Source: Rhizobiaceae bacterium
GTDB taxonomy: Bacteria > Pseudomonadota > Alphaproteobacteria > Rhizobiales > Rhizobiaceae
Direction of reading: 5' to 3'
Length of the DNA: 64,000 nucleotides
NCBI GenBank assembly: GCA_023953905.1
Contig: JAMLJA010000016.1
Coordinates: 1 to 64,000 of the forward strand
This document shows, piece after piece, positions 22,355-46,022 of this stretch (positions are counted from its first letter, which is position 1; each line of letters begins with the position of its first letter). The notes beneath the pieces are model-generated. The model was not told the origin of the DNA. It worked only from the letters and a program-made list of their open reading frames with translations, and searched no databases. Position numbers and translations under genes: made by a program.

Positions 22355-22645
22355 TCAGGTCGACTGGCCTTCCCTGACCGAAGCCCGGAACGCCTTCACA
22401 TCAAATGATTCAAAGCAGCCATTGGCAACGTAAGGGTCGTTGCTGATCAAGGAGTACGCCTCATCGCGATCTTCGGCCTGAACGATCATGATCTGGCCAA
22501 TACGCTCGCCGTCGTCGGAAAGAAGCGGACCAGCCAGCCAGATGCGCTCCATGCGCGGCTCCCAGTAGGTATCGTGATCGCCCCGCAGGCGAGTACGGAT
22601 TTCGGCGATACCGGGGTTCGCGCGTAGGGTGGCGGCAAAAAGCAT
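22355..22645 (-). CDS. YciI-family protein
   Basis: 96-residue protein with the YCII dimeric alpha-beta barrel fold: RMERIWLAGPLLSDDGERIG and DRDEAYSLISNDPYVANG are the family hallmarks, including the conserved His/Asp region in shortened form. Members are often small lactone- or enol-processing enzymes or accessory proteins in catabolic operons; the function of this one is not known. Its ATG at 22645 shares one base with the stop of the FMN 2-hydroxyacid dehydrogenase (TAATG), so it is co-translated with that enzyme. Confidence 0.82.
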   Translation of the reverse strand: MLFAATLRANPGIAEIRTRLRGDHDTYWEPRMERIWLAGPLLSDDGERIGQIMIVQAEDRDEAYSLISNDPYVANGCFESFDVKAFRASVREGQST

Positions 22646-23880
22646 TATTTGACCTTCCTTAGAAAAGAGGCGTCCAGTTCATCCAGACGATTGATCCCAA
22701 GCAGCGCCATGTCGCGACCAATCTCTTCGCCCATGAGCGAGATGGCGTGGCGGACGGCGTCCAGCCCAAACACGGCGGACATCAGGAATGGCCGACCGAT
22801 GAAAACGAAATCGGCGCCAGCAGCCAACGCCTTGAGCACGTCCGTGCCGCGCCTGAAGCCGCCATCGACCATGACCGTCATGGAACCCGACTGTTTGACG
22901 ATCTCCGGAAGCATGCGCATCGGAGCGATCGCCCCATCCAGCTGACGCCCGCCATGATTGGAGACAACGATTCCGTCAGCACCCATTTGCGCGGCCTTCG
23001 CCGCGTCAGCCGCCGAAAGCAGTCCCTTGATGACCAGCTTGCCCTTCCAACGTTGACGAATGCGGGCAACGTGGGTCCAGTCGAGTTGGTCGCGCGCGCC
23101 GATCTGGCGGACCAGGTTGCGCGACATCACCGGAGGGCCGCGAAAAGCATCCATGTTCTCAAAGCGGGGACTGCCTTGCGCCAGCGTGCGCAGGAACGTT
23201 CCGAACGTCCATCTCGGATGGGTCAAGCCGTCGATAGCCAGCCTGAGGCTCGGTCGCATCGGGATACTGAAGCCCGTGCGGACATTGTTCTCGCGATTGG
23301 CCGGAACGGGCACGTCCGCGGTGAGCACCAGTGTGGAAAAGCCCGCAGTTTCCACACGATCCACCATTGCATCGATGCGTTCAGCCTCACCGGGCAGATA
23401 CGCCTGAAACCAGCTCGCGCCACCTTCCTGCGCAAGTCGCTCCAGCGGCATGATGGATGTGGCGCTGACAACCATGGGAATGTTCTCGGCCCGCGCGGCA
23501 CGTGCAAGCACGAGATCGCCCTCAAAGGTGGAAAGCCCGCTGAGCCCCATTGGCGAAATGCCGATCGGTAAACTGTAGTCGCGACCGAACAGAGTCGTAT
23601 GCGCCGAGCGGCGAGAAACATTTGCGAGCACACGCGGCACAAGCGCCAGTTCCTCAAAGCTCTCGCGATTGTCGCGAAACGACTGCCCCGTCTCGGCCGC
23701 GCCGGCATAGTAGCCATAGATCTGACGCGGAAGCCGGTGCCGCGCCGCGCGCTGGAAGTCATCAAGGTTCAGGAACCGCGCAGCAAGCCCTGGATGCGTG
23801 GCCTTCTCTTCCCGTTCCGCCACAACGACACGCAATTTTGCGGCATTGAGATCGCCCGCGTTCGGCGTCTGCGCAATCAT
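22645..23880 (-). CDS. FMN-dependent 2-hydroxyacid dehydrogenase (lactate/mandelate type)
   Basis: 411-residue TIM-barrel flavoenzyme that oxidises an (S)-2-hydroxy acid to the 2-oxo acid. The ATG at 23880 with GAGG just upstream is preferred to a longer frame overlapping the ThDP gene. Visible are IYGYYAGAAETG near the N-terminus (substrate Tyr), TADVPVPANRENN and the active-site block VVSNHGGRQLDG with the catalytic His and FMN/substrate Arg, then VDGGFRRGTDVLKALAAGAD. It lies 67 bp after the ThDP decarboxylase gene, an order that mirrors the mandelate pathway where the product 2-oxo acid is decarboxylated next. A second homologue is at 30564. Confidence 0.9.
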   Translation of the reverse strand: MIAQTPNAGDLNAAKLRVVVAEREEKATHPGLAARFLNLDDFQRAARHRLPRQIYGYYAGAAETGQSFRDNRESFEELALVPRVLANVSRRSAHTTLFGRDYSLPIGISPMGLSGLSTFEGDLVLARAARAENIPMVVSATSIMPLERLAQEGGASWFQAYLPGEAERIDAMVDRVETAGFSTLVLTADVPVPANRENNVRTGFSIPMRPSLRLAIDGLTHPRWTFGTFLRTLAQGSPRFENMDAFRGPPVMSRNLVRQIGARDQLDWTHVARIRQRWKGKLVIKGLLSAADAAKAAQMGADGIVVSNHGGRQLDGAIAPMRMLPEIVKQSGSMTVMVDGGFRRGTDVLKALAAGADFVFIGRPFLMSAVFGLDAVRHAISLMGEEIGRDMALLGINRLDELDASFLRKVK

Positions 23881-23947
23881 CCCGACCTCACTCCCGGAAC
23901 GCCGCCTCGCGAGCGAGGCATTGGGGCATTTCGACCAAGTCTGTGGC

Positions 23948-25717
23948 TCAGGAAGCGCCGGCAGCGGCATAGCCGGGAGCGATATGCACATCCAAAACGG
24001 CAACCTTGCCATCGCGCACCGCCGCAACCGCCTCCTTGATCGCCTCGCGCAAAGCGACTGCGTCTCGGATGGGGCCGAAACCGACCGCGCCCTGGGCCTT
24101 TGCCATCAAAGCGATGTCCGGTGCCGGATCGTCTATGCGCTGTCCGATCCACTTGTTCTCGACGGGGCGTTGGCGCCGCTTGGCGACACGCTCCTGATGC
24201 AGTTCGTCATTGAAGAACGACCGATTGTTGGCGGAGATCACAAGCATGGGGATCTTGTAGTGAACTGCTGTCCAGATCGCGGTCACGCCCATCAACGTAT
24301 CGCCATCGCCGAGCACGGCGACGGGCAGGTGATCGGTGTCCATGAGGGCAAGTGCGGCGCCGACAGCCATACCGGGTCCCGATCCGACACCGCCGCCACC
24401 GGAGTGCCCGAGCTGATCGAGAGGATGGGAGAACTCCATCAATGAACCGTCCCACCCGAGAGGGATGCGCATGAGCGAAACCGGTTGCCCGTCAGCCGCC
24501 GATCTCAGCGCCTGGGCGATGTCGGACAGCTCCAGTTCGTCTCCGGCTTGAGCGTCAGGCTTTGAAGGCGCTGTAGAATATGTCGTCCTTTGTAACGGAG
24601 CCGGGAGCATCGCGGATAGGGCAGCAACAAAGGCTTCCGGGGTTGACTGGACATGAAGATCAACCTCGGGCAGCGCCATGTATTCGAAGTTCGAACCGTT
24701 GTGCAGCAGATGATCCAGCGACACCTGAATGACCTTTGCCGGGCAGGATTGCTGCGGCCAGATCGTCCGCAATGCACCCGCCAGATCGGCCCAATCAATC
24801 GAAAGGACCACATCGGCTTCACGCAGGCGTGCCAACGCCGACGGCGTCAACGACATCCCCGGAGATCCGGCATGCAGGGGATGAGCCGTCGGGAACGCAG
24901 CACCGACCTTGAGATCGGTCGCCACCATTGCATCGAGCTGCTCCGCAAGGCGAACACGATTGTCCCATTCCTTTTGATCGCGCGTAACCCGCCCCATGAG
25001 GATCGCAGGCTTCTTCGCGTTCCTCAGCAAGTCAGAGGCGGCGGCAAGAACCTCATCGGCAGGTCTTGCGTCCGCAAATGGCTTGAACCGCGAGAGGTTC
25101 GGCAATGGACGATCCTGCGTGAGCTCGGCTTCCTGAATGTCGGAATCCAGATTGATATAGACCGGACCTTTCGGGGCGGTCATGCTCATCTGCATCCCGC
25201 GCAGAAACGACTCTTCGGCAGCGATGAGCGACGTCGGCTGGTCGTCCCATTTCACGTAGCTGCGGACCATCGAAGCCTGATCACGCGTGCTGTGAATCCA
25301 GTCGATATAAGGCCGACGATGGGCCGCATCGAGTGGACCGGTGCCGCCTATGATCATCATGGGAACCCGGTCGCACCACGCATTGAAAATCGCCATCGTC
25401 GCATGCATCAGACCAACATTTGCATGAAGCGCCACTGCGAGCGGCTTGCCCGTGACGCGCGCATAGCCATGCGCCATCGCCACCGCGTGCTCCTCGTGCA
25501 GGCAGACGAGCATCTGAGGTGATTTATTACCAAGCCCATTCACGATGCTGTCGTGAAGACCCCGAAAGCTTGAGCCGGGATTGATGCAAATATAGGGTAT
25601 TTCGAAGCTGCGCAGCAATTCGGCTATGTGGTCACTGCCCCAGCGGCTGCCCGCCGGCGACGCTGCAGGCGTCTCGGAGTGGACGGCTTGCTTCGAAAGG
25701 TCTCCGGCTGCGCTCAT
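23948..25717 (-). CDS. Thiamine diphosphate-dependent 2-oxoacid decarboxylase-like enzyme, copy 1
   Basis: 589-residue enzyme of the acetolactate synthase/benzoylformate decarboxylase family. CINPGSSFRGLHDS (about 44-57) and the activating Glu in LHEEHAVAMAHGYA (about 73-86) lie in the PYR domain; the ThDP-Mg motif GDGDTLMG..ISANN lies in the PP domain. The ATG at 25717 has GGAGAAGGG ahead. Paired with an FMN 2-hydroxyacid dehydrogenase it probably decarboxylates a 2-oxo acid to an aldehyde, as benzoylformate decarboxylase does, though a carboligase or sulfoacid-related role is possible. A close paralogue with the same PGSSFRGLHDS block is at 33072. Confidence 0.87.
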   Translation of the reverse strand: MSAAGDLSKQAVHSETPAASPAGSRWGSDHIAELLRSFEIPYICINPGSSFRGLHDSIVNGLGNKSPQMLVCLHEEHAVAMAHGYARVTGKPLAVALHANVGLMHATMAIFNAWCDRVPMMIIGGTGPLDAAHRRPYIDWIHSTRDQASMVRSYVKWDDQPTSLIAAEESFLRGMQMSMTAPKGPVYINLDSDIQEAELTQDRPLPNLSRFKPFADARPADEVLAAASDLLRNAKKPAILMGRVTRDQKEWDNRVRLAEQLDAMVATDLKVGAAFPTAHPLHAGSPGMSLTPSALARLREADVVLSIDWADLAGALRTIWPQQSCPAKVIQVSLDHLLHNGSNFEYMALPEVDLHVQSTPEAFVAALSAMLPAPLQRTTYSTAPSKPDAQAGDELELSDIAQALRSAADGQPVSLMRIPLGWDGSLMEFSHPLDQLGHSGGGGVGSGPGMAVGAALALMDTDHLPVAVLGDGDTLMGVTAIWTAVHYKIPMLVISANNRSFFNDELHQERVAKRRQRPVENKWIGQRIDDPAPDIALMAKAQGAVGFGPIRDAVALREAIKEAVAAVRDGKVAVLDVHIAPGYAAAGAS

Positions 25718-25757: not shown

Positions 25758-25911
25758 ATGTAGCTTAAGACAGTAGTTATTATCAAGCGATATTCGCCTC
25801 GCTGCGCGCGATATAAAAAATAAGGCTCCTTATTATATAGGCGTCAGGCGAGGTTCGAAAGCGAATCCCTCAAGAGGCTATTGCATACGGAATTTATCTA
25901 TGTATTGTAGT
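25758..25911. promoter_or_regulatory. Divergent control region of module E with AATAAGG-N2-CCTTATT palindrome
   Basis: 266 bp separate the divergent ThDP gene and the binding-protein gene at 25984. The palindrome AATAAGGCTCCTTATT occupies 25819-25834; the same palindrome with TG in the centre is at 43500-43515. For the minus strand TTGATA (25786-25781), 18 bp, TACATT (25762-25757) is a candidate promoter. For the plus strand TTGCAT (25881-25886), 16 bp, TATTGT (25903-25908) is possible. The palindrome lies between the two, where one regulator could affect both. Confidence 0.55.
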
Positions 25912-25983: not shown

Positions 25984-26952
25984 ATGACTCGTAAATTCCA
26001 CCTTCTTACAGCCGCAGCCATGATCGCGATCGCGCAGCCTGCGGCCGCACAAGGCAACGAAAAAGTCAAAGTCGCTACGACCTTCCTTGGCCTCTGGGAC
26101 ACCTCGCAACCCTCATTGTGCGCCGAGCGTGGCGAATTCGCCAAGGCCGGTCTGGATGTCGAAGTAACGTCCACGCGTGGCGGCTCGGAAAACGTTCAGG
26201 CGGTCGTGGCCGGCGGCATGGATATCGGTTACTCACCGGGCATCAACTCGGTTCTGGCTGCGGCTGGACAGGGAGCGCCTATCAAGATCATCAGCTCCGA
26301 ATTCCGCGGACAGAATGACTCTTTCTTCTACGTCAAGGCCGACAGCCCGATCAAATCCATGGACGATCTGGCCGGCAAGTCGATCGCCTATTCGCGCCCC
26401 GGCGGCGCCAGTGAGGCCATTCTGCTCGCCCTGAAAGCCGATCGGAACATCGATCTCAATCTCGTCACCGGCGGAGGCATGGATGCCACCTACACGATGG
26501 CGATGACCGGCCAGATCGACGTTGGCTATGCAGTCCCGCCGACAATGTTGAAAGAGGCCGAAGAAGGAAAGATCCGCGTGATCTTCTCGGGCGACGACGT
26601 TGAATCGCAGCGCGGCATGACCCAGCGCCTGATCATCGCCAGCGACGACTTTCTGTCTAACCGGCGCGAGGTGGCGACCAAGTTCCTCGAAGTGCTCGAT
26701 CAGTGCATTGACTGGGCCTATGCCAATCCAGAGGAGTCGCTCGCATACTATGCGAAGTTGAACAAGGTGGATCCTGCCATCGCAAAGAAGGGCATGGAAT
26801 TCTACAAGCGCGAAACACTGGCCTTTGGTCCGATTCAGGAGCAGGAAAAGGGTATCGCGCAGGCTGTTGCCGGTGGCTTCATCAAGGAAAAGCCGAGCGA
26901 GGAAGCTTTGAAGGATCTGGTCCAGATTCTTTACACCACACCCGCTAAGTAG
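25984..26952 (+). CDS. ABC transporter substrate-binding protein (SsuA/NMT1 type), paralogue 1
   Basis: 322-residue periplasmic receptor with a signal peptide ending PAAAQG (cut near residue 22) and a start ATG preceded by GGGGAACG. The mature protein opens VKVATTFLGLWDTSQPSLC and contains RGGSENVQAVVAGGMDIGYS, as in nitrate/sulfonate/taurine-type receptors. A paralogue at 38954 is alike over the full length, by eye more than half identical. A strong stem-loop follows it. Its ATPase is at 27065; permeases are not adjacent but at 34857 and 35677. Ligand unknown, presumably the acid or amine degraded by module E. Confidence 0.9.
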   Translation: MTRKFHLLTAAAMIAIAQPAAAQGNEKVKVATTFLGLWDTSQPSLCAERGEFAKAGLDVEVTSTRGGSENVQAVVAGGMDIGYSPGINSVLAAAGQGAPIKIISSEFRGQNDSFFYVKADSPIKSMDDLAGKSIAYSRPGGASEAILLALKADRNIDLNLVTGGGMDATYTMAMTGQIDVGYAVPPTMLKEAEEGKIRVIFSGDDVESQRGMTQRLIIASDDFLSNRREVATKFLEVLDQCIDWAYANPEESLAYYAKLNKVDPAIAKKGMEFYKRETLAFGPIQEQEKGIAQAVAGGFIKEKPSEEALKDLVQILYTTPAK

Positions 26953-26965
26953 CATTTGGCAGTCA

Positions 26966-26998
26966 GCGCTTGCTGCGACCGCAGGTTGCAGCAAGCGC
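26966..26998 (+). terminator. Stem-loop between binding-protein and ATPase genes
   Basis: GCGCTTGCTGC (26966-26976) pairs perfectly with GCAGCAAGCGC (26988-26998), an 11-bp stem with an 11-base loop, directly after the binding-protein stop. No T run follows. Such hairpins in ABC operons stabilise the receptor mRNA or reduce read-through, giving more receptor than ATPase. Confidence 0.6.
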
Positions 26999-27064
26999 GC
27001 CACCCCACATGAAGCTGATCTCTTTCAACGAGTCGGATTTCATCAAGGTTTATGGATTGGAAGA

Positions 27065-27883
27065 ATGACCCTGACGTCTGATCCTTCTGCACTCTCCGAA
27101 ACGCCAACCGACGTACCCGCACTGGCGCTTCGAGAGGTCGGCAAGTCGTTTGGTAACGGCGATACGACATTCTGGGCAGTGAAGGACTTTTCGTTCGATA
27201 TTCGCCCCGGCGAGTTCATCTCGATTATCGGCCCCAGCGGGTGCGGCAAGTCCACTCTGTTCAGCATCATTGGCGGGTTCTTCTCCCGCTCCAGCGGTAC
27301 CGTGCTTGTCGATGGTAAATCCGGCGCGGATATTCGCCGCTCGATCGGCAGTGTGTTCCAGCAGGAATCCACCTTCCCCTGGCGGACCGCGCTCGACAAT
27401 GTCGCTTTTCCACTCGAGGCTGCCGGGGTAGGCAAGAAGGAAAGGCACGATCGCGCGCGCGAATTGCTGTCGCTCGTCGGCCTTTCGGGTTTCGAGAACC
27501 ATTATCCGTCGGAAATGTCTGGTGGCATGCGTCAACGAACGGCTATCGCCCGTACGCTCGCCGCAAGCCCCAAGATCCTGCTCATGGACGAGCCGTTCGC
27601 TGCACTTGACGAACAGACCCGCATGTTGCTGGGCGATAAGGTTCTCCAGATCCAGCAGTCTCTGAAGCAGACGACGCTGCTGATTACCCACAACATCACC
27701 GAGGCGGTGCAGCTGAGCGACCGCGTGATCATCATGACCTATCGGCCCGGCACAATAAAGCGTGTCGTCGAGGTTGATCTGCCTCGCCCGCGCACGTCCG
27801 AAATCATTGGCAGTGAAGCCTTCAGCCGCGTTGTGGGCGAGATCTGGGCCGATCTTCGCGTCGAGGCCAGCCGGGGCATGTAA
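27065..27883 (+). CDS. ABC transporter ATP-binding protein (SsuB/TauB type)
   Basis: 272-residue ATPase with Walker [11 protein letters not shown]-loop SVFQQESTFPWR, signature MSGGMRQRTA, Walker B LLMDEPFAALDEQT and switch His in LITHNITEAV. It starts 112 bp after the receptor gene, beyond the stem-loop. It is the only ATPase in the plus-strand unit 25984-38864, so it is expected to serve the two permeases at 34857 and 35677 and possibly both paralogous receptors. A short polar N-terminus of about 15 residues precedes the conserved core. Confidence 0.92.
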   Translation: MTLTSDPSALSETPTDVPALALREVGKSFGNGDTTFWAVKDFSFDIRPGEFISIIGPSGCGKSTLFSIIGGFFSRSSGTVLVDGKSGADIRRSIGSVFQQESTFPWRTALDNVAFPLEAAGVGKKERHDRARELLSLVGLSGFENHYPSEMSGGMRQRTAIARTLAASPKILLMDEPFAALDEQTRMLLGDKVLQIQQSLKQTTLLITHNITEAVQLSDRVIIMTYRPGTIKRVVEVDLPRPRTSEIIGSEAFSRVVGEIWADLRVEASRGM

Positions 27884-27989
27884 AGGGCTGCGATCGCGCA
27901 GTGCCGCAGTGCCTTGTTATGTTAATAATGAAGCTTTCTGGCTGATATAGTTTGGTTTGCCGCCTTTTCTGAGAATAGATCCGGAGTCG

Positions 27990-29084
27990 ATGATGAAGTC
28001 CTGGCTGTCTTACGATTTCAATGACATGCGGCTTGAAGATGCGCCCATGCCGAAGGCGGAGCCGGGATGGGTCGTCTGCCGGACGCGCGTGCTGCAGCTG
28101 TCGATTACCGAAGTCGCCGAATTCCGCGGCCTGCCCGTTTCAAGCCACGAAGTCTACAAGGAGATGTGGGCCAAGCAGCGTCCGCTCCCGCTGTTCGGAC
28201 ACGAGTTCTGCGCCGAGGTTGTGGAAGTCGGTGCTGGTGTCGATAATCTCAAGATCGGCGACCGTGTGTTCTATCATCGCGGTGCCCAGTGCGGGCGGTG
28301 CAAGTACTGCAAGGCCGGGCAGCCGCAATATTGCCGGTCGTCCACTTTCGTCGGCGAAGACACCCCAGGCTGTCTTGCCGAGTATTTTCCGGTGCCCGCG
28401 CATGTGGTTGCGGCGGTCCCGAAGGAAGTCAGCGATTCCGAATGCGCCTCGCTGCAGCCTCTGGTGTCGATGGTATCGTCGCTGGAAGGGCTTGGCATCT
28501 CGATGGGTGATACCGTCGCCGTCATCGGTCTGGGGCCAATGGGTCTCGACACGATGCAGGTTGCGAGGGTGGCAGGGGCAGGCAAGGTCATCGCCATTGC
28601 GCGCCGCGACGAAGTGCTGGAATTGGGCCGCTCTCTCGGCGCCGACGTGACTGTCAACGTCACGAACACCGATCCCGTCGAAGCCGTCATGGAGGCGACA
28701 AACGGCCTCGGCTGCGACGTGGTGGTGGACTGCGCAGGCGGCAGCAACGAGCAGGGCCATGCCGGCACGTCGGCCTTCCAGCAGGGTCTCCAGATGCTCC
28801 GCAACGAGGGCCGCATCATGGAGGTCGGACATCTCCCGGCCGGCGCGCAGATCGTCTACGGGCTGATCGAGAAGAAGGCGCTCCGAGTCTATGGTCGCAG
28901 AGCGCCATCGGCGCGCATGATCCAGTATTCGATCGATCTCGTGGCGAGCGGCAGGGTCAAGATCGAGCCAACCATCCTGCACAAGCTGCACGGCATCGAA
29001 AAGGTGCCTGAGGCCTTCGATATGCTCGCCAACAAGTCAAAGCACGGCATCATCAACCCACCGCAAGTGGTGGTCTGGCAGTAA
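27990..29084 (+). CDS. Zinc-dependent alcohol dehydrogenase (MDR superfamily)
   Basis: 364-residue medium-chain dehydrogenase/reductase. GHEFCAEVVEVGAG carries the catalytic-zinc His-Glu pair; four cysteines in CGRCKYCKAGQPQYC form the structural-zinc lobe; the NAD-binding glycines are in VIGLGPMGLD. The ATG at 27990 (or 27993) with CCGGAG is preferred to an upstream TTG. It would oxidise or reduce an alcohol/aldehyde or polyol-type intermediate. It lies in the module E unit, downstream of the ATPase and upstream of an aminotransferase, so it probably handles a product or precursor of that pathway. Substrate unknown. Confidence 0.88.
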   Translation: MMKSWLSYDFNDMRLEDAPMPKAEPGWVVCRTRVLQLSITEVAEFRGLPVSSHEVYKEMWAKQRPLPLFGHEFCAEVVEVGAGVDNLKIGDRVFYHRGAQCGRCKYCKAGQPQYCRSSTFVGEDTPGCLAEYFPVPAHVVAAVPKEVSDSECASLQPLVSMVSSLEGLGISMGDTVAVIGLGPMGLDTMQVARVAGAGKVIAIARRDEVLELGRSLGADVTVNVTNTDPVEAVMEATNGLGCDVVVDCAGGSNEQGHAGTSAFQQGLQMLRNEGRIMEVGHLPAGAQIVYGLIEKKALRVYGRRAPSARMIQYSIDLVASGRVKIEPTILHKLHGIEKVPEAFDMLANKSKHGIINPPQVVVWQ

Positions 29085-29127
29085 ACGGCGACCGCCGTCC
29101 GATATCGGGGGAAGTGGAGTTTCGGTC

Positions 29128-30525
29128 ATGATTTCTGAAGAGCAACTCGCATCATTGTCCTATCCGGCAATGCCCAAGATGGTGACCAATTCGCTGCCGG
29201 GTCCAATGGCGGCAGCCGTGATCGAGCGCGCCCACAAGGCGCAAACTCCGACGCGACCGTCGGTTCGTGGACGATTGGTCATCGAAAGCGCGATGGGCGC
29301 CGGTTTCACAGATGCCGACGGCAATGTTTTCCTCGACATGTCAGCCGGTGTCGCCGTGTCCAGCGTCGGGCGCAATCATCCGAAAGTGGTGGCGGCGATC
29401 CGCGATCAGAGCGAAAAGCTGATGCACTCCGCCGGCCTGGTCAGCGACACCACGGTTTCACTCGCCGAGAAGCTGAACGCGACATTGCCAGTGGGGTTGA
29501 AGGACGAGAGCTTCAGCTGGTTCGGCATGAGCGGCTCGGACGCGATCGAAACCGCCATCAAGTTCGCAAAGGCGATCACCGGGCGCAGCCAGATCGTTGC
29601 CTTCGAGGGGGCCTATCACGGTGTCTTCCACGGCTCGCTGGCACTCACCACCCGCGAGAATTTCAGGGCCGGTTTCGGGCCCCTAATGCCCGGCGCCATG
29701 CATCTCCCCTACCCTTACTGCTATCGTTGCTTTGCCGACATGAAACCGTCGGAATGCGGGTCGCTATGCTCCAAATACGTTCGTCACAAACTGACGACCC
29801 CGAACACGGGTGCGGACGATGTGGCCGCGGTGATCGTTGAATCGATGCAGGCCGATGGCGGCTATATCGACCCGCCGGCTGAATTCCTCCAGACGATCCG
29901 CGAGGTGTGCACCGCCAAGAACATCATCATGATCGTTGATGAAGTGCAGGCAGGCGGCGGGCGGACCGGCAAGATGTGGGGTCACGAGCACTTCGGCGTG
30001 GTGCCCGACATGATGACGTGGGCAAAGGCGGTCGGCGGAGATCTGCCAATGTCGGGCGTGGTAATCCACGAGCGCTTCCGCGACAAGCTTCCGCAGGCCT
30101 CGCAGGTCCTCACGGCGGCGGAGAATGCTCTGTCCAATCGCGTCGCCATGACAAATCTGGATATCCTGACCGATCCCGAAGACGATCTCATGGGCCGCGC
30201 AGTCATCGTGGGCGAGGAATTGAAAGCCGAGCTTCGCGAAATCGCCTCCAAGAGCAAGTTCATGGACGAAGTGCGCGGACGTGGTCTGTTCATCGGCATC
30301 GAACTTGTCTCCGACAAGGAAAAGAGAACGCCGCTGGACGCCAAGCGGATGGGAGCGATCCTCCAGAAGTGCGAACTGCAAGGCGTCAGGATCATGTCCT
30401 GCGGCCGCTACGGTTCGACGATACGGCTGATGCCGCCGCTGACGGCTACACGGGCCCATCTGCGGGCCGGCATCCGTGCACTGGCCAATGCCATCGCCGA
30501 GGTCGAGGCGGAAACCGTCAACTGA
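29128..30525 (+). CDS. Class III aminotransferase (4-aminobutyrate aminotransferase-like)
   Basis: 465-residue PLP enzyme. FGMSGSDAIETAIKFA (about 132-147) and VDEVQAGGGRTG (about 270-281, Asp 271) precede the Schiff-base lysine in TWAKAVGGD (about K300). Four cysteines cluster in the stretch YCYRCFADMKPSECGSLCSK (Cys 198, 201, 210, 214), a feature also seen in other members with a surface metal or Fe-S loop; whether a metal binds here is untested. The start ATG is preceded by GGAG at eight bases. In the operon it is followed by the FMN hydroxyacid dehydrogenase, so amine removal probably feeds the hydroxy/oxo acid steps. Confidence 0.9.
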   Translation: MISEEQLASLSYPAMPKMVTNSLPGPMAAAVIERAHKAQTPTRPSVRGRLVIESAMGAGFTDADGNVFLDMSAGVAVSSVGRNHPKVVAAIRDQSEKLMHSAGLVSDTTVSLAEKLNATLPVGLKDESFSWFGMSGSDAIETAIKFAKAITGRSQIVAFEGAYHGVFHGSLALTTRENFRAGFGPLMPGAMHLPYPYCYRCFADMKPSECGSLCSKYVRHKLTTPNTGADDVAAVIVESMQADGGYIDPPAEFLQTIREVCTAKNIIMIVDEVQAGGGRTGKMWGHEHFGVVPDMMTWAKAVGGDLPMSGVVIHERFRDKLPQASQVLTAAENALSNRVAMTNLDILTDPEDDLMGRAVIVGEELKAELREIASKSKFMDEVRGRGLFIGIELVSDKEKRTPLDAKRMGAILQKCELQGVRIMSCGRYGSTIRLMPPLTATRAHLRAGIRALANAIAEVEAETVN

Positions 30526-30563
30526 ACATCTGCACAGCACATGCAACAAGCGTTGAGGCTAAA

Positions 30564-31634
30564 GTGAGCGAGTTCACCTGCAACCAAGAGATCGTGACGA
30601 TTGCGCGCCGCAATCTCACACAGGATGTCTGGGACTATCTGACCGGCGGTGCGGAGTCTGAAATGACGATGCGGCGCAACCGTCACGCGATAGACAGCTA
30701 CGCCTTCATTCCGCGCGTGCTGCGTGACATGTCGTCGATCGACCCTTCGGGAACCACACTCGGCCAGAAGGTTCGCATACCGGTTCTGCTTGCGCCTATC
30801 GGGTCGCTTCAGGCCATCCATGCTGGAGGTGGCGCCAGTTCTGCAAAGGCAGCGGCCCGGTTCGGGACCATGCCGATCATCAGTTCGATCACCGAGCCGT
30901 CCCTGGAAGAAATAGCCGAGGCGGCCGACGGGCCGAAGGTCTTCCAACTCTATGTTCGAGGCGATTTCGACTGGATCAAATCCATCGTCGGTCGTGCGAA
31001 ATCAGCCGGCTACACATCGCTCGCGCTGACTGTCGACTCCGCCTATTACGGCATTCGGGAGCGACAGCTGATGAATCGCTGGCTGCCGCCCAGCGTCAAG
31101 GCACAAAAGGACCGTCACCTCCAATCAGCCATCACCTGGGACCTCATGGATCGCATTCGCGACCTGTGGCAGGGCAATTTCATGCTCAAGGGAATAGGCT
31201 CGGTTGCCGACGCGGTGATGGCGGTCGAACGGGGCGTCGACACGCTCTACATCTCCAATCATGGCGGCCGGCAACTGGACCATTGTCTGGGTGGGCTGGA
31301 AACCCTGGCGGAAGTTGCCGCGGCGGTAAAGGGTCGCGCCGAACTGATCGTCGATGGCGGCTTCCTGCGCGGCACCGACGTGATCAAGGCCATTGCACTT
31401 GGGGCTTCGTCGGTTGCGATCGGTCGCCTGCAAGGTTGGGCATTGGCGGCGGGCGGCGAGGACGGACTGGTACGCTGTCTTGAGCTCATCGAACGGGAGA
31501 TGATCAATGCACTGGGTCTTCTGGGCGTCAACAATCTCGCCCAGCTGACGACGGATTATGTCCGAAAGACCGATGTCGTCGGACCGACGCATGAACTGAG
31601 CACGTTCTATCACATGAAGGAGCGGCTCACGTGA
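30564..31634 (+). CDS. FMN-dependent 2-hydroxyacid oxidase/dehydrogenase, second homologue
   Basis: 356-residue enzyme starting at a GTG with GAGG five bases before it; frames opening further upstream run over the aminotransferase and are artefacts. YLTGGAESEMTMRRN near the N-terminus holds the substrate Tyr, and YISNHGGRQLDHCLGG holds the catalytic His and Arg, followed by VDGGFLRGTDVIKAIALGAS. It is shorter than the homologue at 22645 and closer in layout to glycolate/lactate oxidases. Its stop overlaps the next aldehyde dehydrogenase start by four bases (GTGA). Likely oxidises a 2-hydroxy acid for the ThDP enzyme at 33072. Confidence 0.88.
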   Translation: MSEFTCNQEIVTIARRNLTQDVWDYLTGGAESEMTMRRNRHAIDSYAFIPRVLRDMSSIDPSGTTLGQKVRIPVLLAPIGSLQAIHAGGGASSAKAAARFGTMPIISSITEPSLEEIAEAADGPKVFQLYVRGDFDWIKSIVGRAKSAGYTSLALTVDSAYYGIRERQLMNRWLPPSVKAQKDRHLQSAITWDLMDRIRDLWQGNFMLKGIGSVADAVMAVERGVDTLYISNHGGRQLDHCLGGLETLAEVAAAVKGRAELIVDGGFLRGTDVIKAIALGASSVAIGRLQGWALAAGGEDGLVRCLELIEREMINALGLLGVNNLAQLTTDYVRKTDVVGPTHELSTFYHMKERLT

Positions 31635-33061
31635 CCGTGTCATTGCAGCATCTGATCGCAGGCGAATGGACGAGCGGATCCGGATCCGAGACGCTGTCCG
31701 TCATCAATCCCGCCACTGAGGAAGAGATTGGCCGCCTGCCGCTGGCAACAACGGCTGATCTGGACCGTGCGCTTGAATCGTCCCAACGTGGTTTTGAGCA
31801 GTGGCGCAAGGCTCTTCCCACCGAGCGATCAAAGGTGCTGCGCAACTTTGCTGCCCTGCTGCGCCAGAATACCGAATTGCTGGCGGCTGCCATAACGGAA
31901 GAAGAGGGAAAGCCGCTTGCGGAAGCGCGCAATGAAGTGGCAGCCACTGCCGAGCTTACGGAATGGCTGGCTGAGGAAAGCCGCCGCATGTACGGCCGCA
32001 TCGTGCCCTCCCGCTATGAGAACACGCGCATTCTGGTGACCTACGAGCCGGTGGGTCCGGTTGCCGCCTTCTCGCCGTGGAATTTCCCCTGCATGATGGC
32101 CGCGCGCAAGATCGCGCATGCCCTTGCAGCAGGCTGCTCGGTTATCTTGAAGCCGTCCGAAGAGACCCCCGGCCCGGCTGTGCTGCTTGGGCGTCTCATC
32201 ATCGAAGCGGGCGCGCCGAAAGACGCCGTCAATATCGTGTTCGGCGACCCCGCCCAGGTGTCGGACTATCTGATCGACAGCCCGATCATCAAGAAAGTGA
32301 ACCTCACCGGCTCGGTGCCGGTCGGCAAACATGTGGCGCAGCGTGCCGCGCGACAGCTCAAGAAAGTGACGCTTGAACTCGGTGGTCATTCACCCGCCAT
32401 CATCATGGACGACGCAGACATCGAGCGAGCCGTCGATCTGTGCTGGAAAGCACGCTATCGCAATGCCGGTCAGGTCTGCACCGCGCCCACCCGCTTCTTC
32501 GTGCAATCCAAGGTTATGGATCAGTTCGTCGAGAAATTCACGGCTGGCGCCGCATCGCTGCGCGTCGGTGTCGGCACCGATGCGTCGACCACAATGGGGC
32601 CGGTTGCAAACCGCAGGCGGCTGGAGGCGATGGAGAAGTTCGTCGCCGATGCCGTCGCACGCGGCGGAACGGTGCTCGCCGGCGGCGAGCGGCTTGGCAA
32701 TCGCGGCTTCATGTTTGGGGCGACGGTGCTCTCGGGCGTTCCGTCGGACGCGGATGTGATGCAGCAGGAGCCATTCGGCCCGATCGCGCCGATTGCCTCT
32801 TTCACCGATCTCGACGAGGTCGTGGCGGAAGCAAACTCGCTGCCGTTTGGTCTTGCCTCCTACGCCTTCACGCGGTCGCACTCCGTCGCCGCGAAACTCT
32901 CCGCCTCACTCAAGGCAGGCGTCGTCGCGCTCAATGGTGTTACCGTCACTGCCCCCGAAGCACCCTTCGGTGGCGTCGGCGACAGCGGCCTTGGGCGGGA
33001 AGCCGGCATCGAGGGCGTGCTGGAGCACATGAACATCAAAACCGTCCTAGAAACCTTCTGA
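31631..33061 (+). CDS. Succinate-semialdehyde-type aldehyde dehydrogenase
   Basis: 476-residue NAD(P) enzyme starting at GTG 31631, overlapping the previous stop. FSPWNFPCMMAARK (about 147-160), the base in LELGGHSP (Glu about 249) and nucleophile GQVCTAPTR (Cys about 283) are intact. It sits between the FMN hydroxyacid enzyme and the ThDP decarboxylase, so it is the obvious enzyme to oxidise the aldehyde made by that decarboxylase, the role played by MdlD in the mandelate pathway. The sequence groups with SSADH rather than with benzaldehyde dehydrogenases, which suggests an aliphatic aldehyde. Confidence 0.9.
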   Translation: MTVSLQHLIAGEWTSGSGSETLSVINPATEEEIGRLPLATTADLDRALESSQRGFEQWRKALPTERSKVLRNFAALLRQNTELLAAAITEEEGKPLAEARNEVAATAELTEWLAEESRRMYGRIVPSRYENTRILVTYEPVGPVAAFSPWNFPCMMAARKIAHALAAGCSVILKPSEETPGPAVLLGRLIIEAGAPKDAVNIVFGDPAQVSDYLIDSPIIKKVNLTGSVPVGKHVAQRAARQLKKVTLELGGHSPAIIMDDADIERAVDLCWKARYRNAGQVCTAPTRFFVQSKVMDQFVEKFTAGAASLRVGVGTDASTTMGPVANRRRLEAMEKFVADAVARGGTVLAGGERLGNRGFMFGATVLSGVPSDADVMQQEPFGPIAPIASFTDLDEVVAEANSLPFGLASYAFTRSHSVAAKLSASLKAGVVALNGVTVTAPEAPFGGVGDSGLGREAGIEGVLEHMNIKTVLETF

Positions 33062-33071
33062 GGAGATCGGG

Positions 33072-34835
33072 ATGGAACGCGACATTGCAGTAAAGTCGAC
33101 CGAATCCGAGTTGAAATGGGGCAGCGACGTCGCAGCCGAGATGCTGCGCCGTCTCGGCGTGGAATATGTCTGCATCAATCCGGGCTCCAGTTTTCGCGGG
33201 CTGCATGACAGTCTCGTGAACTATCTCGGCAACGAAAACCCGTCCCTGCTCCTCTCGCTCCACGAAGAGAGCGTGGTGGCCATTGCCCACGGCTATGCCA
33301 AGGTCACCGGCAAGCCCATGGGTGTGGTGCTGCACAGCAATGTTGGGCTGATGCTGGGCATGATGTCGATCTTCAATGCATGGTGCGACCGCGTGCCGAT
33401 GCTGATCATGGGCGCGACGGGCGCAGTCGATACGGTGGTACGCCGCAATTGGATCGACTGGCTGCACACGTCGCGCGACCAGGGCGCGCTTATACGTCAC
33501 TTCGTCAAATGGGACGACCAGCCGACGTCGCCCGGTGCCACGGTCGAGGCAATACTGCGGGCGCATATGCTTGCCTGCACCGCCCCTTGCGGCCCTTCCT
33601 ACGTCGCCCTTGACCGGCGATTGCAGGAGGACGCGCTGGCCAAGGAGATTCCGCTTCCGGATATCTCGCTCTTTACGCCGCCGCATCCTCCCATGCCCAC
33701 GCCCGAAACGATGACGCAGGCCGCATCCATGCTGGCAAATGCGGAGCGTCCCGTGATCCTGATAGGTCGGGCCTCGCGATCGCAGGCTGCATGGTCCCAG
33801 CGCATCGCGCTTGCCGAATTGTTGGGCGCACGGGTGATAACCGATCTCCGCTTCGGCGCCTCTTTCCCGACCACACATCCTCTGCACGGCGCACCGCCGG
33901 ACCTCTTCCTGACGCCGCGAAACCGGCAGATACTGGCCGAGGCTGACGTCGTGCTCAGTCTGGGCTGGGACGACCTCGCCGATGTCATGCGGCAGGCCAA
34001 TGCCGACAGCGGAAGCAAGGCGAAAGTCATTCACGTCTCTATCGATCACCAGGTTCACAATGGATGGTCGGGCGATCACCAACGACTGGCACCCGTGGAA
34101 CTGCGCATCGCCTGCGAGGCCGACTCGGTGCTTGAGCCCCTGACCTCCGCTTTGAAAGATCAGGCGGTCGTTGCAAAACCAATACCAGCCGCAACCGCCG
34201 CTCCGAATATGCCGCCGGTGGCAGCCGGCAAAAAGCCAACCCTGCTCGACATCGGTCGAGCGCTGTTGGCCGCTCGTGGCGATCGCAAACTCTGCCTCGC
34301 GCGTGTTCCGCTAAATTGGCCCGCTGGCGCCTACCCGTTCGAGGATCCGATGGATTATCTCGGATATGACGGTGGCGGCGGCGTTGGATCTGGTCCTGGC
34401 ATGACGATTGGATCAGCGTTGGCGCTCAAGGGCTCGGACCGCCTGCCCGTCGGGCTGATGGGTGATGGCGAATTCATCGGCGGCGCGACCGCGCTTTGGA
34501 CAGCAGCTCATTACCATATCCCGGTGCTGATCGTGGTCGCGAACAATCGCTCCTACTACACGGATGAGGTGCAGCAGGAAGCTGTCGCCCTGGCACGCGG
34601 TCGGCCGGCGGAGAACAAATGGATCGGACAACGCATCGACGAGCCTGCGATCAACATCGCGGGAATGGCCGAGAACCTGGGATTCAAGACCGAGAAGGCG
34701 GTAACCGATTCCGGTGACGTTCAAGCCGCGATCGAGCGGGGGCTGGCCGAAGTCGAAGCCGGTGGATGCTATCTGATCGAAATCGAAATCGAGCCGTCCG
34801 ACGGTTCCAGCCTCGATTGGCTGAATCACCACTAA
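33072..34835 (+). CDS. Thiamine diphosphate-dependent 2-oxoacid decarboxylase-like enzyme, copy 2
   Basis: 587-residue paralogue of the enzyme at 23948, alike over its full length. CINPGSSFRGLHDS and the activating Glu in LHEESVVAIAHGYA lie in the PYR domain; GDGEFIGG..VVANN is the ThDP-Mg motif in the PP domain. The middle domain differs most between the copies. GAGGAGATC precedes the ATG by a few bases. It follows the aldehyde dehydrogenase by 10 bp and precedes the permeases by 21 bp. Two such enzymes in one region suggest either two substrates of similar shape or two subunits; heteromers cannot be excluded. Confidence 0.87.
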   Translation: MERDIAVKSTESELKWGSDVAAEMLRRLGVEYVCINPGSSFRGLHDSLVNYLGNENPSLLLSLHEESVVAIAHGYAKVTGKPMGVVLHSNVGLMLGMMSIFNAWCDRVPMLIMGATGAVDTVVRRNWIDWLHTSRDQGALIRHFVKWDDQPTSPGATVEAILRAHMLACTAPCGPSYVALDRRLQEDALAKEIPLPDISLFTPPHPPMPTPETMTQAASMLANAERPVILIGRASRSQAAWSQRIALAELLGARVITDLRFGASFPTTHPLHGAPPDLFLTPRNRQILAEADVVLSLGWDDLADVMRQANADSGSKAKVIHVSIDHQVHNGWSGDHQRLAPVELRIACEADSVLEPLTSALKDQAVVAKPIPAATAAPNMPPVAAGKKPTLLDIGRALLAARGDRKLCLARVPLNWPAGAYPFEDPMDYLGYDGGGGVGSGPGMTIGSALALKGSDRLPVGLMGDGEFIGGATALWTAAHYHIPVLIVVANNRSYYTDEVQQEAVALARGRPAENKWIGQRIDEPAINIAGMAENLGFKTEKAVTDSGDVQAAIERGLAEVEAGGCYLIEIEIEPSDGSSLDWLNHH

Positions 34836-39925: not shown

Positions 39926-39974
39926 CCATTCTCAGCGCGCCACTACAGGCAAGGTTGGTAGATAAGGCTTGATT

Positions 39975-41945: not shown

Positions 41946-43409
41946 ATGACCTTTAAGACCAAGCTCAGCGCGCTTCCCACCCAGCGGGGACTGTTTCACA
42001 GCGGCAAATGGCAGCCAGCGATAACGGGCGCGACCGAGGAAGTCTTCGACCCAGCGACAGGTGAAAGCCTTGGGCATACCTCGATTGCTGGGCGTGAAGA
42101 CGTTGAAGCAGCCGTTCGCTCCGCCAAACAGGGGTTTGCGGAATGGCGCCGCGTCCCCCTTGCCGAACGGTCTGCTATCCTGAGGGAAGCGGCCGTCATC
42201 ATCCGCGCCAATGCCGAACGCATCACCCTGACCGATTCGCTGGATTCCGGCGGTCCTTACAAGCGCATGCTGAAGGACGCTGAGGCTGGCGCGGCGACGT
42301 TCGACTTCTTCGCTGGCCTTGCCACCGAGATGAAGGGCACCACAATCCCGTTCAACGACACCTCGCTGAATTACACGCTGCGCGAGCCACTCGGCGTAGT
42401 TGTCCGGATCAACGCGTTCAACCATCCGTTTCTGTTTGCGGCCCAGCGTGCAGCAGCACCACTCGTGGCCGGCAACACGATCATTATCAAGCCGCCCGTG
42501 CAGGCACCCATGTCTACACTCTTGTTCGCCGAACTGATTGGCCATCTGTTCCCTGCCGGCGTGTTCAGCGTCCTGCCGGGCGGGATGGAATGCGGCCAGT
42601 CCCTTGTCGAGCACAAGGACGTCAGCATGGTCGGTGTGATCGGCTCCGTGGAAACCGGAAGGGCTATCGCCCGGTCGGCGGCCGGGACTCTGAAGAAGCT
42701 GAGCCTGGAACTGGGTGGCAAGAACGCGCTGATCGCCTTCCCCGATGCCAATATCGACAAGGTGTCGGCGGGCGCGGTGCAGGGCATGAATTTCACCTGG
42801 TGCGGCCAGTCCTGCGGTTCGACGTCACGCGTTTTCCTGCACGAGTCGATCCATGACGAGGTGCTGGAGAAGATCGTAGCGGCGATTGGCAAGATGGTCC
42901 CCGGGATCCTTTCCGATCCGGAAACCGATATGGGCTGCATGGTCAGCGCCGCGCAGTTGGAGAAGACCCAGCGTTATGTCCAGTATGGCCGCGAAGATGG
43001 CGCAAGGCTGGTAGTCGGCGGGGACCGGCCGGAGAATGCCGAACTGCAAAAAGGCTTCTATCACAACCCGACCGTATTCGCCGACGTCCGGCCGGATATG
43101 CGCATCGCACGCGAGGAAGTCTTCGGGCCAGTCATGTCGGTGATCAAGTGGCGCGATGAGGAAGAAATGTTCGCCGCCGTAAACGACTCCGATCTAGGCC
43201 TGACCGCAGCGATCTGGACGAACGATCTCTCCACAGCTCACCGGGCGGCGGCACGGGTCGAAGCTGGCTACATCTGGGTGAATGGCAGCAGCTCGCACTT
43301 TCTCGGAGCGCCATTCGGCGGATATAAGCTTTCAGGTCTGGGCCGCGAGGAATCCATCGAGGAGCTCTTGGCCTGCACCCAGATAAAGAATGTCAACATA
43401 ACGCTTTAG
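41946..43409 (+). CDS. NAD-dependent aldehyde dehydrogenase (betaine-aldehyde/lactaldehyde-like)
   Basis: 487-residue enzyme of a different branch from the three SSADH-like paralogues. RINAFNHPFLFAAQ (about 154-167), the base in LSLELGGKN (Glu about 255) and the nucleophile in WCGQSCGSTSR (Cys about 290) are intact. The start ATG at 41946 lacks a clear ribosome site, but no other start fits. It is transcribed away from the MarR gene at 41689, which is the likely regulator. An aldehyde substrate is assured; its identity is not. Confidence 0.88.
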   Translation: MTFKTKLSALPTQRGLFHSGKWQPAITGATEEVFDPATGESLGHTSIAGREDVEAAVRSAKQGFAEWRRVPLAERSAILREAAVIIRANAERITLTDSLDSGGPYKRMLKDAEAGAATFDFFAGLATEMKGTTIPFNDTSLNYTLREPLGVVVRINAFNHPFLFAAQRAAAPLVAGNTIIIKPPVQAPMSTLLFAELIGHLFPAGVFSVLPGGMECGQSLVEHKDVSMVGVIGSVETGRAIARSAAGTLKKLSLELGGKNALIAFPDANIDKVSAGAVQGMNFTWCGQSCGSTSRVFLHESIHDEVLEKIVAAIGKMVPGILSDPETDMGCMVSAAQLEKTQRYVQYGREDGARLVVGGDRPENAELQKGFYHNPTVFADVRPDMRIAREEVFGPVMSVIKWRDEEEMFAAVNDSDLGLTAAIWTNDLSTAHRAAARVEAGYIWVNGSSSHFLGAPFGGYKLSGLGREESIEELLACTQIKNVNITL

Positions 43410-43496: not shown

Positions 43497-43516
43497 TATA
43501 ATAAGGTGCCTTATTA
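43497..43516 (+). promoter_or_regulatory. Promoter of the Rieske operon overlapped by TAATAAGG-N2-CCTTATTA palindrome
   Basis: A perfect -10 TATAAT (43497-43502) runs into TAATAAGG (43499-43506) and CCTTATTA (43509-43516), an 8-bp perfect inverted repeat with two bases between arms. No good -35 is seen at 16-18 bp, so an activator or weak basal promoter is possible. The 7-bp arms are identical to the palindrome at 25819-25834. The MarR gene at 45549, downstream in the same direction, is the best candidate to bind it. Confidence 0.6.
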
Positions 43517-43532: not shown

Positions 43533-43898
43533 ATGGCTGAGCACTTTGTCTGCAATATCAGCGAACTTGCTGACGGCAGCGTCCGAATCTTCGAGGGTGA
43601 GGGGCTGGAAATCGGCGTCATCCACCACAGCGGCACGGTCTATGCCTACCAGAATCTCTGTCCACATCAGGGCGGGCCGGCGTGTGAGGGTCTGCGTATT
43701 CCGCAGGTCGTGGACGTGATCGGAAAGGGCGGCGTTTTCGTCGGGCAAACGTTCGATGAGGACGACATGCACATTGTCTGCCCGTGGCATGGCTACGAAT
43801 ATCATCTGTCGTCAGGCGAGCATGTCTGCAACGCGGCACTGAAGCTGAGGAAGTTTGACGTGGAGACACGCGAGGGCGGTATCTATGTCAAAATCTGA
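43533..43898 (+). CDS. Rieske [2Fe-2S] domain protein with long loop
   Basis: 121-residue single-domain Rieske protein. The cluster ligands are C43 and H45 in NLCPHQGG and C83 and H86 in IVCPWHGYEY. The gap between H45 and C83 is 37 residues, about twice that of ordinary Rieske ferredoxins, and contains PQVVDVIGKGGVFVGQTF. It may carry electrons to a mono- or dioxygenase, but no oxygenase gene is nearby. AGGGAG precedes the ATG. Its end overlaps the next gene by 14 bases. The operon continues with a small unknown protein and an amidohydrolase, so it may instead be a structural or redox partner of those. Confidence 0.85.
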   Translation: MAEHFVCNISELADGSVRIFEGEGLEIGVIHHSGTVYAYQNLCPHQGGPACEGLRIPQVVDVIGKGGVFVGQTFDEDDMHIVCPWHGYEYHLSSGEHVCNAALKLRKFDVETREGGIYVKI

Positions 43899-44223
43899 TC
43901 TTCAGCCCGACGAACTCGCTTTCCGTCTCGCGGAAATGTGCGAGCGCGGTGTAGACCGTGGCGATCTGACAGCGCTTTCGGATCCCGCCCTGGTGGGCGT
44001 GCTGACCAGCGTGCTTCGCCTTCTGGCCGCTCGCGCTCAGAACGAACTGACCGTCGATCTCGGAATTGGCAACAGCCGTCTGAGCGCGACGGACGCGGTT
44101 ATCGCCAGCACCGCCATTCTCGAAAGCGCCTCCGTCGAGGTTTTCGAACTGGCGGCATGGCAGGCGATGACCAGCACCGGCTCCGCCAAGCGCGCGCGCG
44201 CCGAACATCAAATGGAGCAGTAG
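43885..44223 (+). CDS. Small protein of unknown function in the Rieske operon
   Basis: 112-residue protein, not recognised. It starts at ATG 43885 inside the last codons of the Rieske gene and ends three bases before the amidohydrolase start, so it is translationally linked to both. The translation is Ala- and Leu-rich and mainly helical, with hydrophobic stretches LVGVLTSVLRLLAARA and ATDAVIASTAILESA but no signal peptide, metal motif or clear membrane helix. It could be a small partner subunit of the Rieske protein or the amidohydrolase. The coupling argues that it is a real gene. Confidence 0.7.
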   Translation: MSKSDLQPDELAFRLAEMCERGVDRGDLTALSDPALVGVLTSVLRLLAARAQNELTVDLGIGNSRLSATDAVIASTAILESASVEVFELAAWQAMTSTGSAKRARAEHQMEQ

Positions 44224-45548: not shown

Positions 45549-46022
45549 GTGGCGAAGAAGATCCAGATCGGACTGGGCAAGAGGCTCAGGCTGGCTCACA
45601 TGGCATTCAGTCGCGGACTGCGGATGGAGCTGGCAAAGGAGAACGTCAGTTTCGGTCAGTTTGTCCATCTCGAACGTCTCTGGGAAAAGGACGGCCTGAC
45701 CCAGAAGGAACTGTCGGGACGCGTCGGCGTGGAGATGGCCTCGTCGACGGTAATCCTGGCCGAGCTGGAAACGCTCGGCCTGGTGCGGCGCGAACGTTCG
45801 GAGCAGGACCGTCGCGCAATCAACGTGTTTCTCACGCCCGAAGGCAAGGCCCTGAAGTCGCGCCTGCTGAAATGCGCCGGCCGTGTGAACGCGTTGGCGC
45901 GCAAGGCACTCTCACCTGAACAGGTGGATCTGGTTATGGCCGCCCTCGACATCGTGGCCAAGGAGATGAACGAGCACTATCCGCAATCCGGGCGCAGCGG
46001 AAAGCAGCGGCTACAGGCCTGA
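45549..46022 (+). CDS. MarR-family transcriptional regulator
   Basis: 157-residue regulator starting at GTG 45549. The DNA-binding helices are in LTQKELSGRVGVEMASSTVI and the wing is ERSEQDRRAINVFLTPEG. It is 81 bp downstream of the amidohydrolase and probably autoregulated with that operon, whose -10 box is overlapped by a typical MarR palindrome (43499-43516). The convergent neighbour, an acetamidase gene, ends 10 bp away. Ligand unknown; aromatic or unsaturated acids are common in the family. Confidence 0.88.
   Translation: MAKKIQIGLGKRLRLAHMAFSRGLRMELAKENVSFGQFVHLERLWEKDGLTQKELSGRVGVEMASSTVILAELETLGLVRRERSEQDRRAINVFLTPEGKALKSRLLKCAGRVNALARKALSPEQVDLVMAALDIVAKEMNEHYPQSGRSGKQRLQA

Follow-up and report, generated by a model that had tools for sequence, protein, structure and literature searches.

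A conserved gene trio predicted to encode a dinuclear oxygenase, a long-loop Rieske ferredoxin and a small third component in a Rhizobiaceae bacterium

Gene content of the locus

We analysed a window of 64,000 nucleotides (positions 1 to 64,000 of contig JAMLJA010000016.1, assembly GCA_023953905.1, from a Rhizobiaceae bacterium), in which three consecutive genes encode a Rieske ferredoxin, a 112-residue protein and an amidohydrolase-family protein (Table 1). As an earlier note on this DNA had pointed out, the small helical protein begins within the final codons of the Rieske gene: its ATG lies at 43885, and its initial 14 nt overlap the Rieske 3′ end, including the stop codon at 43896–43898. 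Pfam searches placed MarR genes on both sides of the trio (at 41087 and 45549) and an aldehyde dehydrogenase gene upstream. The region is flanked by a histone-deacetylase-like gene (39969–41063) and an acetamidase/formamidase gene (46033–46974), which hint at amide or amine substrates.

Table 1 Features of the window around the trio and the second palindrome.
Feature	Position	Strand	Evidence
Rieske [2Fe-2S] ferredoxin, 121 aa, inferred ARO electron donor	43533..43898	+	PF00355 E 6.9e-11; C43/H45/C83/H86
37-residue inter-motif loop, residues 46-82	43668..43778	+	Motif spacing, AlphaFold2 model
112-aa four-helix protein, proposed third component	43885..44223	+	AlphaFold2, co-occurrence
PF04909 amidohydrolase, predicted dinuclear oxygenase, 413 aa	44227..45468	+	Pfam, PDB profile, ligand alignment
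MarR-family regulator after the ARO, candidate cassette regulator	45549..46022	+	PF01047 E 2.6e-12
Aldehyde dehydrogenase adjoining the cassette, candidate pathway step	41946..43409	+	PF00171
Perfect palindrome AATAAGGTGCCTTATT, candidate operator, 17 nt 5′ of the Rieske ATG	43500..43515	.	
Second exact palindrome copy, 149 nt 5′ of the SsuA-like binding-protein gene at 25984	25819..25834	.	
Gene cluster 3′ of the second palindrome	25984..34835	+	Pfam
Cluster members: SsuA/NMT1 binding protein, ABC ATPase, Zn-ADH, class III aminotransferase	within 25984..34835	+	
Cluster member: FMN_dh alpha-hydroxy-acid oxidase	domain from about 30603	+	
Cluster members: ALDH; TPP enzyme	31631-33061; 33072-34835	+	
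Divergent pair: TPP enzyme (23948-25717), FMN_dh (22645-24027)	22645..25717	-	
UbiD-type decarboxylase	20025-21383		

The amidohydrolase-family protein and its long-loop ferredoxin

The protein encoded at 44227 was assigned to Amidohydro_2/PF04909 (E 3.7e-22; 79.9 bits against a cut-off of 26.4), a family that takes in hydrolases and decarboxylases as well as oxygenases. Its amidohydrolase-related dinuclear oxygenases (AROs), with Mn/Fe or diiron centres, form a class of recent date, few of whose members have a known partner set or substrate. In a PDB search with a nine-sequence profile, the best five matches were 8sm7, 8sm9, 8sm6 (SfbO), 6m1w_B (AibH2) and 8sm8 (E 1.7e-58 to 7e-38). PtmU3 was matched at E 5.2e-11, and weaker PDB matches included ACMSD and the 5-carboxyvanillate and gamma-resorcylate decarboxylases. 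The structure 8SM6 is that of SfbO and 8SM7–8SM9 are candidate AROs, all with redox-active diiron centres, and within this set activity was demonstrated for SfbO only (PMC10811679). AibH2 is an Mn/Fe monooxygenase (PMC10401708), and hydroxylation among the matched ARO structures was demonstrated for AibH2 and SfbO only (PMC10811679, PMC10401708). The identity of clade AROs, that is, of the window protein and its relatives, to proven oxygenases is low, and the clade is distant in sequence from SfbO and 8SM7–8SM9.

The metal ligands given for AibH2 in PMC7782822 and PMC10401708 (25D, 27H, 211H, 265E, 337D and 340H) and its D342 align with D44, H46, H230, E283, D355, H358 and D360 of the window protein, so that the acidic second-shell residue (D342 in AibH2, E313 in PtmU3) is present as D360. 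The six predicted ligands and D360 were kept in 94 of 94 distinct clade sequences, the window's among them. One of these, L040, is missing from the set of 93 clade AROs used for the gene-neighbourhood counts below, since its DFPHWD failed the motif filter; beside it lies a Rieske gene whose loop is 37, and no small gene. A small Rieske gene lies beside the ARO in the window and in 79 of the 93 distinct clade AROs. Pairing with Rieske ferredoxins is established for AROs. A Rieske gene adjoins 90% of 555 AibH2-like genes (PMC10401708). The earlier note had stated that no oxygenase is near. That is probably wrong: the amidohydrolase bears the dinuclear oxygenase signature and, as it keeps the AibH2 ligands, the oxygenase found missing is probably the third gene itself. 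Judged by homology and ligand conservation, the 44227 “amidohydrolase” is most likely the terminal oxygenase of the trio.

An AibH1-like PF04909 partner, of the kind that lacks the dinuclear motif, was adjacent to 0 of 109 clade AROs (window included) versus 14 of 22 other AROs after duplicate removal (0 of 111 and 21 of 30 with duplicates), and a search of the window's own genome with its ARO gave a single match at E 1e-5.

The Rieske motifs are exactly as the earlier note had read them: C43-P-H45, 37 residues and C83-P-W-H86, set in a Rieske fold. The AlphaFold2 model (mean pLDDT 93) has NirD, CarAc and T4moC among its nearest folds and superposes on 4aiv with Z 14.0 and an rmsd of 2.0 over 103 residues. 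Within an otherwise normal Rieske fold, the loop was modelled as a short helix (49–52) and two long strands (54–63 and 69–82), with a pLDDT of 75 at residues 41–50 and 92–97 at residues 51–80. A third cysteine, C51 (43683–43685), eight residues past C43, was invariant in 65 of 65 clade ferredoxins.

Rieske dioxygenase ferredoxins of the BphF/CarAc type have a short inter-motif spacing of about 15–18, from which the 37 of the window protein departs. In the ferredoxins encoded beside 79 distinct clade AROs the loop length was 37 in 75, 36 in three and unparsed in one; a value this constant is not a matter of chance. The partners of distant AROs had a loop of 32 in 15 of 15 cases, a second, overlapping set of distant AROs gave 32 at each of the 20 loci where a Rieske gene was present, and one ARO-partner Rieske protein outside the clade (L238) had a loop of 36. 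For comparison, 20 small Rieske genes were taken from related genomes, namely all 19 open frames of up to 160 aa except the window's, plus one of 180. Four had loops of 32–37 and all four lie beside an ARO (two of them, L240 and L241, already known as trio loci and the other two not), whereas none of the 16 with short loops of 15–21 did so in the fetched stretch, some stretches being ended by contig ends (4/4 versus 0/16, p 2e-4). The short loops were mostly of 16, close to the ordinary spacing of about 15–17 quoted in the earlier note. The best 30 PF00355 matches are mostly larger proteins; the 23 that could be parsed had loops of 13–21, without an ARO alongside. Among the small Rieske genes tested, then, a long loop (32 or more) marks the ARO ferredoxins and provides a sequence signature for them; PMC10811679 leaves the spacing open (C-x-H-xn-C-x2-H). 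The long loop is probably an element that docks the ferredoxin on the oxygenase.

The small protein and co-occurrence of the trio

The AlphaFold2 model of the small protein comprises four helices and no strand (mean pLDDT 83, 58–70 at the C-terminal end, pTM 0.64). Among 55 aligned homologues F86, L88 and W91 were invariant and T68 and E87 nearly so, in model numbering, which is one below that of the full protein because Met1 was omitted. Pfam returned no family for the window protein; across the 55 homologues it gave three families, each matched by a single stray sequence (E 0.0018–0.0085). NCBIfam gave a single match (0.011, a dipeptide permease model) and PHROGs none. The best PDB profile match was XepA at E 0.4, the best Foldseek match had E 4.1, and VIA-align gave no Z of 2 or more over the three chains compared. 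Pfam and PDB searches, which may miss relatives, likewise produced no sequence or fold match of note to the effectors of bacterial multicomponent monooxygenases (MmoB/TmoD), and no fusion of the small protein to a neighbouring gene occurred in the collected loci searched. The possibility of a chance or shadow ORF was rejected, given its conservation in 55 homologues and its position in the trio.

A contig scan with a seven-sequence alignment yielded at least 566 relatives, of which 78 loci were kept; plasmid records contributed eight further loci, seven of them annotated. The trio was conserved in records titled as members of Hyphomicrobiales, Rhodobacterales and Rhodospirillales. Conservation of the three-gene order had been proposed in the earlier note as a check, and the three genes do co-occur: the small gene was central in 85 of 85 distinct triples, 80 in the order Rieske–small–ARO and five in the order ARO–small–Rieske. 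The count did not change when the allowed gap was widened from 300 nt, a setting that favours the middle position, to 3000 nt. An in-frame start overlapping the Rieske 3′ end was present in 80 of 81 cases (25 of 81 in the third-frame control), and an ATG at the window's own offset in 60 of 81, with 0 at neighbouring third-frame offsets. Only six of 91 distinct small-protein sequences lay outside any triple: two at a contig edge (L053, L070), two as second copies near the locus end (L029, L033), one whose ARO is cut by the contig end (L147), and L138. At L138:2781-3074 the small-protein homologue has no ARO or Rieske gene within the fetched 6 kb.

Viewed from the oxygenase, 67 of the 93 distinct clade AROs have both a Rieske and a small gene alongside, 12 a Rieske gene only, two a small gene only (both at a contig edge) and 12 neither. 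Seven of the last group are tandem copies behind one Rieske–small pair and five are unexplained. The tandem loci have one Rieske and one small gene followed by five AROs (L029:6920-13941) or four (L033:6912-12725), an apparent paralogue expansion sharing one donor pair. The small gene is thus missing beside 24 of the 93 AROs, half of which have a Rieske gene alongside and half neither gene. A quick tree showed eight changes of small-protein adjacency, with the window nested among rows having the small gene. Where the queried ARO locus is without the small gene, the genome encodes the protein elsewhere in 13 of 14 cases; in the remaining one (G538, locus L081) no small protein was detected at E 0.001. 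Since it is absent near those 24 AROs and from G538, the small protein may not be strictly required.

The converse search, starting from the small protein, gave 34 matches, in genomes preselected for holding clade AROs. Twenty regions were fetched, and in 19 an ARO gene is accompanied by a Rieske gene whose loop is 36 or 37, the exception being L138; two of the 20 were already among the collected loci, and the pattern holds in 17 of the other 18. Of 347 genomes from the window's order, seven encode the small protein (10 copies, E up to 1e-5). Clade AROs, scoring over 550 bits, occur in exactly these seven, also in 10 copies, and all 10 small genes adjoin an ARO and a Rieske gene; 29 further genomes had distant PF04909 relatives only, without the small protein. 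The seven genomes represent seven genera and six families. If the two genes were independent, such co-occurrence would have a probability of 9e-15, a figure overstated because the genomes are related, limited candidates were scored per genome and alignment rows came from three of the seven (the genomes of the window, L030 and L034, while G094, G236, G427 and G789 gave none).

As the earlier note had supposed, the Rieske and small proteins thus look dedicated to the amidohydrolase, a reading supported by gene order and co-occurrence across three orders. No description of a third small ARO component was found in the literature searched, mostly at abstract level, and the main text of PMC10811679 does not mention one. 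On sequence grounds the small protein appears to be an undescribed third ARO component, most likely a subunit or coupling factor and possibly an assembly factor.

Some loci stand apart. Two Rhodobacterales genera carry a nearly identical ARO cassette on plasmids (L006, L007); it is probably mobile, since the same dehydrogenase and Mu-type transposase protein accessions lie near it. On a haloarchaeal plasmid (L013:4995-6481) an ARO gene is followed by a Rieske gene with a 37-residue loop, without the small protein, and then by an aldehyde dehydrogenase gene. A Thioclava plasmid with an ARO cassette also carries a predicted BKC-1 beta-lactamase gene (L008:16479-16691, PLSDB).

Proposed function, alternatives and pathway context

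From computed homology, ligand conservation, gene order, co-occurrence, the loop signature and predicted folds, we infer metal content, O2 chemistry, electron transfer, docking, a role for the small protein and a substrate type. The trio is, with good though not full confidence, a three-component oxygenase comprising the 44227 protein as terminal enzyme, the Rieske protein as donor and the 112-aa protein as a dedicated third component. The terminal enzyme would adopt a TIM-barrel amidohydrolase fold binding a dinuclear centre (Fe/Fe or Mn/Fe), which with O2 would hydroxylate a small molecule. The ferredoxin encoded at 43533 would serve as its dedicated electron donor, docking on the oxygenase through the long loop, and the 112-aa protein would be a structural or coupling subunit taking the place that AibH1 has in AibH1H2. 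Speculatively, the product would probably pass on to FMN_dh, TPP decarboxylase and ALDH, whose genes lie close by. The earlier note had left a choice between dedication to the amidohydrolase and an unknown redox step. The former is supported; and with the amidohydrolase most likely the terminal oxygenase, the redox step is probably the O2-dependent hydroxylation that this enzyme itself would carry out.

A close parallel is AibH1H2-AibG-AibF, the 2-aminoisobutyrate hydroxylase of Rhodococcus wratislaviensis (PMC7782822, PMC10401708). Both systems have a PF04909 terminal oxygenase with the same six ligands, a Rieske ferredoxin partner and catabolic surroundings with alcohol and aldehyde oxidation. 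AibH1H2 includes AibH1 as a second PF04909 subunit and works with a reductase of its own, AibF, whereas the window trio has one PF04909 protein and the small helical protein, with no adjacent AibH1-like gene or reductase. SfbO and 8SM7–8SM9, the best PDB matches of the window ARO family, were identified by the same Rieske-plus-PF04909 logic. PtmU3, a nonheme diiron monooxygenase, likewise belongs to the amidohydrolase superfamily and shares the ligand logic; we know of no Rieske partner for it. It also differs in being biosynthetic, with CoA-ligated substrates accepted (PMC7782822). T4MO combines a dinuclear hydroxylase with a Rieske ferredoxin (T4moC) and a small extra protein (T4moD), as proposed for the trio. 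The loop of T4moC is short, and T4moD and the window's small protein are presumably unrelated. The T4MO hydroxylase is a four-helix-bundle diiron protein and not a TIM barrel, and AibF and AibG have been likened to T4MO components (both PMC7782822). The window thus appears, from its sequence relationships, to encode an ARO system that has its own long-loop ferredoxin and a third component seemingly not described before. We regard it as possible, if doubtful, that it represents a distinct three-protein oxygenase class, in which a new, unrelated four-helix family has replaced AibH1, the Rieske donor is keyed to it by an extended hairpin loop, and, in this lineage, alpha-hydroxylation of a carboxylate feeds a mandelate-like route.

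Membership of the same Pfam family and the weaker PDB matches to ACMSD and the decarboxylases would also suit an ordinary mononuclear hydrolase or decarboxylase (of the ACMSD or gamma-resorcylate decarboxylase type) whose Rieske neighbour has another job. We consider this improbable, in that AROs outrank those enzymes in the PDB search, the full dinuclear ligand set and the D342 equivalent are kept throughout the clade, and adjacency to a long-loop Rieske gene is conserved. That the ferredoxin instead reduces a classical Rieske oxygenase encoded elsewhere, the trio being merely co-regulated, is very improbable: loops of 32 or more track AROs and the two triple orders are conserved. Its resemblance in fold to CarAc and T4moC speaks for this reading, as do Roseobacter cassettes: on these Rhodobacterales plasmids a large Rieske-domain protein is encoded about 6.5 kb, and a PDR/VanB-type reductase about 4 kb, upstream of the ferredoxin, which could therefore have a different partner in that setting. 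AibF is a 2Fe-2S reductase too (PMC7782822), and a reductase of this kind is therefore no argument against an ARO. In the window itself, a Pfam scan of 40 ORFs, the trio included, revealed no classical oxygenase partner in the remaining 37, and no reductase lies next to the trio. The trio's reductase is probably encoded elsewhere. A VanB-like reductase family (Fer2 plus NAD-binding) recurred in 7 of the 79 loci; within the Rhodobacterales cassettes it lies several kb upstream and could there be the AibF counterpart. A gene following the Rieske gene in Aminobacter (L012), annotated as an FAD-dependent oxidoreductase, is classed by Pfam as an aromatic-ring hydroxylase.

Two further alternatives concern the small protein. 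It could act in metal loading or assembly, being required to build the cofactor but dispensable for turnover; such a factor might be shared between oxygenases, which suits its absence beside some AROs in genomes that encode it elsewhere and the single Rieske–small pair ahead of five or four tandem AROs. Its unbroken middle position and its overlap with the Rieske gene suit stoichiometric production instead, and its invariant residues form no evident metal-binding motif; we hold this role to be distinctly unlikely. A turnover effector like MmoB or TmoD of the bacterial multicomponent monooxygenases would match in size, and the arrangement of a hydroxylase with a Rieske ferredoxin and a small protein is shared. 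The model here, however, is all-helical and finds no fold match, whereas MmoB and TmoD are alpha/beta proteins, and such a role seems rather unlikely.

Under the preferred reading of a three-component oxygenase, the third component is one to include when members of the window ARO clade are reconstituted. The result also suggests that many adjacent “amidohydrolase family protein” and “hypothetical protein” annotations are oxygenase systems.

The genes around the trio supply a concrete substrate hypothesis. Neighbourhoods of related AROs were varied, with TctC receptors, ABC transporters, a TPP enzyme, ALDH, FMN_dh and UbiD. Near 78 related loci and 40 control regions (evenly spaced, from the five genomes G427, G094, G548, G536 and G757), FMN_dh occurred at 17 versus 0, UbiD at 15 versus 0, SsuA at 10 versus 0, homologues of the window's two queried ALDHs at 17 versus 0 and the TPP enzyme at 13 versus 1; p-values for such comparisons are too small, since the 78 loci are related. 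Not significant against the controls were ADH (1 versus 0), the aminotransferase (3 versus 0) and XDH (10 versus 2). FMN_dh, TPP enzyme and ALDH were found together at only 5 of the 78 loci, all close relatives in the window's subclade. In the window, FMN_dh and TPP-enzyme genes stand on both sides of the palindrome at 25819. An FMN_dh, a TPP decarboxylase and an ALDH are the enzyme kinds of the mandelate route, and with these nearby, alpha-hydroxylation of a carboxylic acid is the best guess for the window enzyme, a speculative one that we hold at clearly less than even confidence. In a mandelate-like route the hydroxy acid would be oxidised to the keto acid by FMN_dh, decarboxylated to the aldehyde by the TPP enzyme and oxidised to the acid by ALDH.

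The exact 16-bp palindrome was not found in the fetched loci of other genomes, so its conservation is not supported. Allowing up to three mismatches, 9 of 100 shuffles reached two matches, while both real sites have none. The whole 4.75 Mb genome contains just two exact copies of AATAAGGNNCCTTATT, each of them in the window (0 for the reversed-pattern control). With a copy before each of two catabolic gene clusters, the palindromes likely define one regulon, and the MarR protein encoded at 45549 is a candidate regulator of the cassette that may act at the palindrome.
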